From Puniceicoccus vermicola (lineage in GTDB: Bacteria; Verrucomicrobiota; Verrucomicrobiia; Opitutales; Puniceicoccaceae), in assembly GCF_014230055.1 (NCBI RefSeq), contig NZ_JACHVA010000053.1, positions 248,001 through 312,000 of the forward strand: DNA of 64,000 bases, written 5' to 3'. Below, piece after piece: positions 11,818-64,000 of the stretch. The notes below the pieces were generated by a model. The model did not search any database, was not told the origin of the DNA, and saw only the letters and a program-made list of their open reading frames with translations. Every line of letters starts with the position of its first letter. The stretch's first letter is position 1. A program made the position numbers and the translations under genes.

Positions 11818-12096
11818 TTTCGGAAGAGTGAATGCTCTTCGCGGATTCGGGCAAGAGCGGAAAGCTGGGATCCTTGGAGCGGAAGCGCGAGAACGATTTC
11901 GAACGACCTCCGATGGATGGAAACGACTATCGTCGAACCTCTCTGGCGCGAATTGAAACAGACGTGTTCACCCCATGACTCCATTGTGGGGAGGTTGCTT
12001 CAGCGCCTTCCTCCTCCTTTAGGCCAATGCGTAGAAGCGCCTATCGTCGATCCTCTCCGGGAGATCTTTTGGAGCGGAAGCGCGCCATGACCTGCG
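11818..12096. repeat. Intergenic gap with degenerate copies of repeat families A and B
   Basis: No gene is convincing here. Around 11876-11906 and 12021-12084 the sequence matches parts of the 110-bp family B unit at 52.7 kb: GGAGCGGAAGCGCGA, ATTTCGAA and CCAATGCGTAG. Around 11985-12020 a GAGG...CCTC hairpin with TTGCTTCAGCGCC resembles the third hairpin of family A. These look like decayed copies. Confidence 0.5.
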
Positions 12097-30451: not shown

Positions 30452-30544
30452 GGAGAGGAATGACGAGAGCCGTTTCTCCGAAACTCCGGAAAAGTGCGAT
30501 TCGTGTCCAATCCCTTGTCGAAATCGCTGTAGCGCTTCCGTTCC
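30452..30544 (-). repeat. Remote degenerate copy of family B repeat, inverted
   Basis: Read on the minus strand, this stretch aligns end to end with the 110-bp tandem unit at 52.7-53.1 kb. Shared blocks are GGAGAGGAA, CGAGAGCCGTTTCT, GAAACTCCGGAAAAG, TCGAAATCGCT and AGCGCTTCCG. It is the reverse complement of the tandem array's orientation and about 17 bp shorter. It lies in the 442-bp gap 30305-30746, where I see no gene. Confidence 0.7.
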
Positions 30545-43062: not shown

Positions 43063-43352
43063 GGGCAAGGCTGAAGCCATACCCCACAGTGGGTGGGTTG
43101 TTTCAACGCTCACCTGAGAGGTTTGGTCTGGGGCCCGCATACTCGGGATGTTGCTCTTTTGTCGGAGAGGAGCATGTCGGGGGTGTGCGTGGGCAAGGCT
43201 GAAGCCATGCCCCACAGTGGGTGGGTTGTTTCAACGCCCACCTGATAGGTTGGTCTGGGGTCCGCATACTCGGGATGTTGCCCTTTTGCCGGAGAGGAGC
43301 GTGTCGGGGGTGTGAGTGTGCAAGGCTGAAGCCATGCCCCACAGTGGGTGGG
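43063..43352. repeat. Family A tandem repeat (2.3 copies, period 127-128 bp)
   Basis: Units begin at 43063, 43191 and 43318; the third stops after GTGGGTTG. Each starts with a near-palindrome GGCAAGGCTGAAGCCATGCC, then CCCACAGTGGG, then a GGTGGG...CCCACC stem around TTG-TTT-CAA, so three hairpins follow in series. They fill the 446-bp gap before the GH127 gene and end 7 bp before the MEKHLA gene stop. No coding sequence is convincing here. Confidence 0.88.
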
Positions 43353-43358
43353 TTGCGC

Positions 43359-48921: not shown

Positions 48922-49606
48922 TGAGTTGCTGAGGGCGCGTGGGCAAGGCCGGTTCTTGGGCAAGTCTTCGATCAAAGTAGCCGCTCAGCTTTAGCTGCGC
49001 GGTCTAGCGGTTTCGAAAGGTTTTTCTGAGGTGCCGTTCGGAGCAGGCGTGATGGGCAAGGCTGAAGCCATGCCCATCAGTGGGTGGGTTGCCTTCAGCA
49101 CCCACCTCATCGGGTCTGTGCGAGATTCTGGTCTGCGTTTTGTGCGCCTGTGGCGAGCTGGGTGCGTTGCTGGGTGTGTGTGGGCAAGTCCGATTCTTGG
49201 GCAAGTCTTCGATCAAAGTAGCCGCTCGGCTTTAGCTGTGCGGTCTAGCGGTCTCGGAAGGTGTTTCTGAGGTGCCGTCCGGAACAGGCTGATGGGCAAG
49301 GCTGAAGCCATGCCCCACAGTGGGAGTGGGTTGCTTCCAGCGCCCACCTCGTCAGATCGGTTCGAGACCCTGGTCTGCGTTTTGTGTGCCTGTGGCGAGC
49401 TGGGTGCGTTGCTGGATATGCGGGGGAGCAAGTCCGATTCTTGGGCAAGTCTTCGATCAAAGTAGCCGCTCAGCTTTAGCAGCGCGGTCTAGCGGTCTCG
49501 GAAGGTTTTTCTGAGGTGGCGTCCGGAACAGGCTGATGGGCAAGGCTGAAGCCATGCCCCACAGTGGGTGGGTTGCTTCCAGCGCCCACCTCGTCAGATC
49601 GGCCCG
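48922..49606. repeat. Family A tandem array (period about 240 bp)
   Basis: The unit repeats from 48922 to 49606, with the marker GGGCAAGTCTTCGATCAAAG at about 48958, 49199 and 49443 (period about 241-244). Each unit also holds a family A hairpin block starting at 49054, 49294 and 49538. The block keeps the same three stems as at 43 kb, with base changes mostly compatible with pairing. The 858-bp gap 48820-49677 holds no gene I can support. Confidence 0.9.
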
Positions 49607-52640: not shown

Positions 52641-52668
52641 TCGCATCGGCATTCCCCTCTCGGGTCGT

Positions 52669-53136
52669 AGCGGAAGCGCGATAGCGATTTCGAAGGTAAG
52701 TTCCGGAGCGTCCTCGGACTTTCCGGAAAGTTCGCAGAAACGGCTCTCGCCGTTCCTCTCCAATACGTAGGAGATGGGAGCGGAAGCGCGATAGCGATTT
52801 CGGAGGTAGGTTCCGAGCGTCCTCGAACTTTTCGGAGAGTTTCGCAGAAACGGCTCTCGCCGTTCCTCTCCAATGCGTAGGAGATGGGAGCGGAAGCGCG
52901 ATAGCGATTTCGGAGGTAGGTTCCGAGCGTCCTCGAACTTTTCGGAGAGGTCCGCAGAAACGGCTCTCGCCGTTCCTCTCCAATGCGTAGGAGATGGGAG
53001 CGGAAGCGCGATAGCGATTTCGGAGGTAGGTTCCGGAGCGTCCTCGGACTTTCCGGAGAGTTTCGCAGAAACGGCTCTCGCCGTTCCTCTCCAGTGCGTA
53101 GGAGATGGGAGCGGAAGCGCGATAGCGATTTCGAAG
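52669..53136. repeat. Family B tandem repeat (4.3 copies, 110-bp unit)
   Basis: CGGAAGCGCG marks units at 52671, 52781, 52891, 53001 and 53112 (period 110-111). Each unit has a hairpin AACGGC-TCTC-GCCGTT and an upstream TTCCGGA...TCCGGAA or TTCCGA...TCGGA stem, with an inner GTCC-TC-GGAC in some copies. They fill the gap before pntAA. Apparent protein repeats in reverse frames are an artefact of the array; 110 is not divisible by 3. Confidence 0.93.
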
Positions 53137-56140: not shown

Positions 56141-56960
56141 TGCTACCCAAAGGCGCAAAAGATCAGAAAAATGAGGAGGATCGTGTCGGGTCCGGGTTGA
56201 TCCCGTGTCCCTGCGTAGGATCGGGGGTTCCCAGTATCAACCAAGTCGCGACAAGCGCTTGTCCGGAGTCGCATGCGAAGAGGTGAAGGATCTATGAGTG
56301 TTCGATTTTATTATTGTCGTACTCGCATGACTTTAGTCGTGCGCATCTCGTTGGAGCGGGTTTGCAGTTCCGACTGTAGTCGGCTCCCGTGCTGCCGCCG
56401 CGCATGAAGTTTAAGACCCATTGCAAGGATACCAAGGCAGGGAAGTGTGGGCCCCGCTCCGTGTAGCTCGGATCGGGCAGATCAATCCGATGGCCACCAA
56501 GAGGCACAAAAAGGAGGAGGATCGTGTAGTCTACGGGTTGATCCCGCGCCCTGCATTGGATCGGGGTATCATAGTATCAATCAAGTCGCGACAACCGTTT
56601 GTCCGGAGTCGCATGGGATGAGGTGAGGGATCTATGAGTGTCCGATTTTATTATTGTCGTACGTGCATGACTTTAGTCGTGCGTATTGCGTTGGGGCGGG
56701 TTTGTAGTTCCGACTGTAGTCGGCTCCCGTGCTGCCGCCGCGCATGAAGTTTAAAACCCATTGCAAGGATACCAAGGCAGGGAAGTGTGGGCCCCGCTCC
56801 GTGTAGCTCGGATCGGGCAGATCAATCCGAGGGCCACCCAAAGGCACAATAGATCACAAAAAAAGAGGGGGAATTCGTGTAGGGTTCGGGTTGATCCTGC
56901 GCCCGGTGCAATCTTGAGGTCTCTTGGGGTAAACCCAGTCGCTACAAGGGATTTCTCTGG
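56141..56960. repeat. Family C tandem repeat (about 2.4 copies, 340-bp unit)
   Basis: The marker TCTATGAGTG recurs at 56291 and 56631 (period 340). A third, partial unit starts near 56831 and an incomplete one lies before 56290. Each full unit has two hairpins: GCATGACT-TT-AGTCGTGC (56325-56342) and CCGACT-GT-AGTCGG (56370-56383), then a GCTGCCGCCGCGC block. The 965-bp gap 56043-57007 has no gene I can support. Confidence 0.9.
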
Positions 56961-63407: not shown

Positions 63408-64000
63408 ATGCCAAGGAAGAGTCGTATTGAGTATGCGGGAGCGGTCTATCATGTGATCAGCCGCGGGAATTACCGGAAGGAGTTGTTTCTAGAGGGTGGC
63501 AGTGGGGAGTCTTTTGAGAAGACGATTTTCGAGGCAGCGGAGCGTTGTGGCTGGCGGTTGTTTGCGTATGTGATCATGAGTAACCACTATCATCTGGCGA
63601 TGGAAACGCCTGAGCCGAATCTGGTGGAGGGGATGAAGTGGTTGCAGAGCACATTTGCGACCCGTTTCAATCGGTTCCGAGGTGAGCGGGGGCACGTGTT
63701 TCAAGGGCGCTACAAATCGATTTTGGTGGAGGAGGATCGACCTTTGCTGGGGCTAATCGATTACATTCATCTCAATCCGGTGCGGGCGGGTCTTTGCACG
63801 GTCGGGGACTTGCAGAGCTATAGGCTATCGAGTTTTCCAAAGTTTCGCAAGAGGGTGGTGATGCCTCCGCTGGATCGGGGTTGCTGCCTATCGCTCTGTG
63901 ACTTGCCGGACAGTCTGGCGGGAATGCGCAAATACCAGAAGCGGCTTGAGATTGTAGAGGAAAGCGATCCGAAAAGAAAAGACGAGCTGGATCGGAAATA
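63408..64000 (+). mobile_element. tnpA: REP-associated tyrosine transposase (RAYT/TnpA_REP), 3' end cut by window
   Basis: An open frame of 197 codons from ATG 63408 to the window edge. It starts MPRKSRIEYAGAVYHVISRGN, the common N-terminus of IS200-like REP-associated transposases. The HUH motif is SNHYHLAM (H60, H62), and the catalytic Tyr is Y119 in DYIHLNPVRAG. FQGRYKSILVEED lies between them. These Y1 single-strand transposases mobilise REP palindromes and usually are single-copy, domesticated or semi-mobile. The 160 bp upstream (63246-63407) hold no clear REP sequences of the families described here. The C-terminus is outside the window. Confidence 0.93.

Follow-up and report, generated by a model that had tools for sequence, protein, structure and literature searches.

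The window analysed here is a stretch of 64,000 nucleotides of Puniceicoccus vermicola DNA. Between the stop of a Gfo/Idh/MocA-type dehydrogenase gene (52640) and the start of pntA (53211), both on the + strand, it carries an intergenic tandem array. TRF places the array at 52669-53133, with a period of 110, 4.2 copies, 95% matches and a score of 832. Split at the array's own motif, it falls into units of 110, 110, 110 and 111 bp and a partial unit of 27 bp, which start at 52669, 52779, 52889, 52999 and 53110 (Table 1). The array is thus built as the first-pass annotation had described it, from four full units and one partial unit.

Anatomy of the array

REPs are palindromes of 20-50 nt with GTAG before them. 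A BIME (bacterial interspersed mosaic element) joins a REP to an inverted one through linkers that vary; BIMEs often stand in tandem, with rayt genes among them (PMC2817692, PMC8266576). Every full unit of the array carries the hairpin AACGGC-TCTC-GCCGTT (hairpin A), as had been noticed before. None of 200 shuffles matches its fold (z -3.5). Every unit also carries a second true hairpin, CGGAAGCGC-GATA-GCGATTTCG (hairpin B; z -2.3 against shuffles), which is the inverted partner of A. An ungapped alignment of A with the reverse complement of B has identity at 19 of 26 positions in the window and at 24 of 26 in the closest forms, and none of 20,000 shuffles does as well. On the same strand, the similarity between A and B is not significant in the window.

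Hence, A and the reverse-complemented B are homologues, and the units alternate between a REP and an inverted REP. A head-to-tail dimer, in which A and B would be hairpins of the same direction, is ruled out by the same alignment. The REP has the form G(T/C)AG-AA-ACGGC-TCTC-GCCGT and the inverted REP the form GGAG-CGGAAGCGC-GATA-GCGATTTCG. The order of REP, spacer, inverted REP and spacer is the layout of a BIME. The head of the A copies in the window is GCAG, compared to GTAG in the family; degeneration to GYAG has been reported within REP families (PMC3733652). The first B copy is preceded by GTAG, and B has no GTAG at the position that corresponds to the head of A.

Table 1. Repeat features of the A/B family in the window.
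Feature	Position	Strand	Basis
BIME array B-(A-B)x4: four 110-111 bp units and a terminal partial unit	52667..53133	+	TRF, unit split, A/B anatomy
Inverted REP B copy 1 (+ strand: GTAG-CGGAAGCGC-GATA-GCGATTTCG)	52667..52692	-	pattern search
B-to-A spacer, array-specific, holding the proposed second stem	52693..52733	.	fold z, spacer comparison
REP A copy 1, GCAG-AA-ACGGC-TCTC-GCCGT-TCCTCTCC	52734..52761	+	pattern search, unit anatomy, fold
Inverted REP B copy 2	52777..52802	-	pattern search
REP A copy 2	52844..52871	+	pattern search, unit anatomy
Inverted REP B copy 3	52887..52912	-	pattern search
REP A copy 3	52954..52981	+	pattern search, unit anatomy
Inverted REP B copy 4	52997..53022	-	pattern search
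REP A copy 4	53065..53092	+	pattern search, unit anatomy
Inverted REP B copy 5, array end	53108..53133	-	pattern search
Degenerate A-B copy, inverted; a further partial A-like arm beyond, to about 30580	30452..30544	-	genome match and patterns
Degenerate, partly truncated A/B copies	11876..12084	+	pattern searches

The spacer between B and A holds what had been proposed as a second stem, with the form TTCCGGA/TCCGGAA in units 1 and 4 and the form TTCCGA/TCGGA in units 2 and 3. The loss of a G in one arm and the change from C to T in the other had been taken as a coupled change that keeps the pairing. The sequence differences exist, but they do not belong to a conserved structure. A third change, G to A, separates the two forms, and the right arm of unit 4 is actually TCCGGAG. 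In units 1 to 4 the segment folds no better than shuffles (z of -0.8, -0.04, -0.8 and -1.15), and units 2 and 3 prefer a different fold. The segment is an array-specific spacer, absent from other arrays; together with the z values of -0.04 to -1.15 this rules out a conserved second stem. Because units 2 and 3 are adjacent, the change amounts to one event at most. The argument from a coupled change therefore fails: it concerns a single event in a non-conserved spacer.

Remote copies had been reported at 30452-30544 (inverted), 11876-11906 and 12021-12084. They do exist, in degenerate form, and are somewhat longer than claimed. The last two belong to one region with B at 11876-11901, A-like hairpins at about 11919-11943 and at 12031-12058, and then a truncated B.

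Copies, covariation and spacing across the genome

Searched against the host assembly (5.2 Mb, 143 contigs), the array gives 81 matches at E up to 1e-3. With up to 2 mismatches allowed, the genome has 129 matches to hairpin A, and with up to 3 allowed it has 91 to hairpin B; the reversed patterns match 0 times. By a hand count of the hit lists, the copies lie at about 50 separate loci, in unrelated contexts, and they include the remote degenerate copies of the window. A copies that were found without requiring GTAG mostly have GTAG as their head, and some have GAAG or GCAG. On C132, C138 and C143, A is joined with hairpins of other families. Such hybrid arrays imply that REP families interact.

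To avoid selecting copies by their stems, we used the pattern GTAG-N17-CCTCTCC, which fixes the flanks only and no stem base. It has 57 matches (16 in the reversed form). Three are unrelated by inspection and the rest are copies of hairpin A, a few of them with mismatched pairs. The stem types include ACGGC/GCCGT, ATGGC/GCCAT, ACGAC/GTCGT, ACAAC/GTTGT, ACGGT/ACCGT and ATGGT/ACCAT. Among 23 distinct copies, with the three unrelated matches excluded, 94.9% of cells are paired and four of the six pairs show double compensatory changes, a count that is inflated by relatedness, since there is one stem type per array and the events are not independent. The four pairs that changed did so at different loci. 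The covariation score of 0.337 compares to 0.215 in shuffles, none of 500 shuffles is as high, and structures slid along the sequence score at most 0.148. Adding reverse-complemented B forms gives the same picture in a sample that was hand-picked from the fetched units and leans towards paired forms.

According to the first-pass annotation, a lack of covariation among genome-wide copies and a confinement of copies to this locus would have reduced the array to a simple tandem duplication. Hairpin A covaries and copies occur throughout the genome, so the finding survives. Selection on a folded single-stranded form, or the copying of such a form, is likewise well supported by the covariation of hairpin A and by the dispersal, but not by the second stem from which it had been argued.

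Spacers are 83-86% identical within arrays and 43-50% identical between arrays (42-49% in shuffled controls). Near-identity within arrays and unrelated sequence between them imply that the arrays formed independently at each site. When the first spacing of each array is taken, the distance from B to A, stem to stem, is near 46 nt: of 23 simple arrays, 22 fall within 42-49 nt. The exception is the C127 array, with 37 nt in one terminal unit and 46-47 nt in its other units. In arrays with a third hairpin the distance is 84-88 nt. Distances from A to B fall into discrete classes of 23-25, 29-31 or 40-49 nt, and Levene's test on the array medians of simple arrays yields p = 0.00015. Except at its ends, the B-to-A spacer has little column information. 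A weak residual motif makes a remote common origin of these spacers possible.

RAYT genes and their repeats

A gene for a 186-aa HUH/tyrosine RAYT (REP-associated tyrosine transposase) lies among A/B repeats at C52:76339-76896, on a contig other than that of the array. The setting is A-B-A-B-gene-B-A: B copies adjoin the gene and A copies lie on both sides. The protein contains the motifs MPDHAHFLW (HUH) and RHYIQENPV (catalytic tyrosine), aligned with E. coli TnpArep 4er8, which is also its best PDB match (E 0.007). It matches the NCBIfam family REP_Tyr_transpos (NF047646) with E 1.7e-12 and 47 bits, where the curated cut-off is 80 bits, and its score is also under the Pfam cut-off. Judged from its sequence and setting, the C52 RAYT is likely to be the cognate transposase of the A/B REPs. 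A search of the genome with Pfam Y1_Tnp (PF01797) has 50 matches, none of which adjoins A or B. The conclusion that there is no cognate RAYT, which came from this search, is overturned by the C52 gene.

With one short RAYT as the query, nine short RAYT genes were found. A tenth, on C141, was found with a profile, and the C52 gene became the eleventh with the C141 protein as the query. All eleven have repeats common to both flanks, most weakly for the C36 gene and for one of the two C92 genes; for the ten genes other than C52 these repeats are 23-264 bp long. With at least eleven short RAYT genes, each among its own hairpin repeats, this genome is a natural set for studying the co-evolution of transposases and REPs.

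In a search of 87 genomes of the order with the C52 RAYT, matches at E up to 1e-5 occur in 18. Where the flanks of these relatives were read, most of the genes have GTAG/CTAC-tagged hairpins on both sides, and the sequence of these hairpins is different. This is expected if RAYT and REP co-evolve. The exact A/B pattern has one match in other species, in an actinomycete, which is probably due to chance.

Further Y1 transposase genes and repeats were seen in the genome and in the window. The RAYT gene at C9:20139-20693 (L188) has an internal TGA stop and still lies within its own hairpin array. More than 30 similar Y1_Tnp proteins of about 320 aa (YHLMSRTVNGEALFGDREREVLRKMIWQVA...) are encoded on other contigs (L016-L028, L049-L050, L052, L054-L076); no GTAG hairpins stand out in those flanks that were read. 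Within the window, a tandem array at 43063-43355 has a period of 127 and the hairpins GGGCAAGGCTGAAGCCATGCCC and CCCACAGTGGG; its repeats also flank the RAYT gene C80:19790 (L077) on both sides. The array at 48941-49602, with a period of 244, contains GTAGCCGCTCAGCTTTAGCTGCGCGG, as found beside the RAYT gene C127:8125, and repeats of the C80 type. It is a hybrid BIME that mixes the hairpins of two RAYT families. Two direct repeats of 340 bp at 56167-56849 contain CGCATGACTTTAGTCGTGCG, a hairpin that resembles those beside the RAYT gene C127:41387. At about 63411-64000 there is a gene for a Y1_Tnp protein (MPRKSRIEYAGAVYHVISRGNYRK...), flanked by long inverted repeats (GGGGTCAAACGCAAAATATAA). 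In this it resembles the TIRYT, or TIR-associated tyrosine transposases, described in PMC3733652.

Origin of the array and comparison with known systems

Very likely, in our view, the array is a BIME whose REP family was spread non-autonomously by the cognate C52 RAYT and which was amplified at its present site. The A/B REPs probably reached their roughly 50 places by means of a single-strand-cutting transposase encoded elsewhere in the genome. This spreader would be the C52 RAYT, which belongs to the Y1/HUH single-strand transposases and is related to IS200/IS605. In E. coli, TnpA-REP cleaves REPs as single-stranded DNA and depends on GTAG, and an inverted REP alone is no substrate (PMC8266576). 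By homology, the substrate of the C52 RAYT would be single-stranded DNA, in which the enzyme would recognise a hairpin together with the GTAG tag 5' of it, and would cut and rejoin the strand next to it. A REP pair would land between genes, local DNA would turn into spacers, and a module of one REP (A, with a GTAG-type head), one inverted REP (B) and two spacers would be amplified head to tail there. Both the mobilisation of A/B and the chemistry of amplification are what we infer, and the tandem copies could also have been made by ordinary recombination after one REP pair had arrived. As the A copies of the window have GCAG instead of GTAG, the array may now be a poor substrate for the RAYT. 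The constancy of the B-to-A distance might mean that the RAYT measures the gap, for example as a dimer on two REPs whose tag ends face each other. Geometry and not spacer sequence would then define the amplified unit, an idea that we hold only tentatively and think rather doubtful.

Could the hairpins instead be kept for a role in a transcript, as an mRNA stabiliser, an attenuator or a small RNA between the dehydrogenase gene and pntA? The array lies between co-directional genes and would be transcribed on read-through, and REPs are known to act at the RNA level (PMC3733652). However, the only Rfam matches above the gathering score in the window are two tRNAs, and no family matches the array. 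The same-genus genome G002, one of three other genomes of the same family from which the A/B sequence is absent, keeps the dehydrogenase-pntA pair without the array. Copies elsewhere stand in unrelated contexts, and recognition by a RAYT already accounts for the conserved pairing. We thus regard a structured RNA as a very unlikely explanation of the array, although the hairpins may have a side role in RNA.

Spacers that are near-identical within and different between arrays would also be predicted if local intergenic DNA had simply been duplicated in tandem, by replication slippage or unequal recombination and without any mobile element. Such a duplication does not account for the recurrence of A and B, with other spacers, at about 50 further loci, for their covariation, or for a cognate RAYT that sits in the same repeats. 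The genome-wide copies refute it as a full explanation, and we consider it extremely unlikely; slippage may still have been the last step, which set the copy number in the window array. Palindromic repeats at regular distances could further suggest a CRISPR-like or attC-like cassette array. The spacers, being 83-86% identical within arrays, are not unique, which refutes a CRISPR, and the orientation of the repeats alternates, so that the probability of a cassette array is practically negligible.

A BIME spread by its RAYT fits the background on REPs, BIMEs and RAYTs in other bacteria (PMC2817692, PMC3733652, PMC8266576). In Marinomonas sp. MWYL1, REPtron Mb (group 3 TnpA-REP) has a perfect stem of 5 bp, a loop of 4 nt and 2 bases between GTAG and the stem (PMC8266576). 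The geometry of hairpin A is nearly the same; the sequences are unrelated. GTAG repeats are abundant and highly enriched in Opitutus terrae, also a member of the Verrucomicrobia (PMC3733652). The GTAG REP families of this and other bacteria (Di Nocera et al. 2013, PMC3733652) share with A/B the short GTAG-tagged palindromes, the presence of several families per genome and clusters that are tandemly reiterated with flanking DNA. The A/B family differs in its absence from the three same-family genomes; its sequence is new to us. The array is ordinary, well-preserved REP/BIME DNA.

In layout, A/B is close to arrays of the BIME-2 type, formed by y and z REPs in E. coli and described in Stenotrophomonas (Nunvar et al. 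2010, PMC2817692). They share the alternating orientation of the REPs, modules in tandem, inter-REP segments that vary from one array to the next, and rayt genes directly tied to BIMEs. In Stenotrophomonas, too, palindromes are kept through complementary mutations in the stem, and BIMEs can be hybrids with REPs of different RAYTs. In contrast to these arrays, A/B is a different sequence family and the spacing from inverted REP to REP is nearly constant. A limited literature search returned no description of such near-constant spacing with spacers of differing sequence, which is possibly a new detail. It provides a testable handle on how BIME arrays form.
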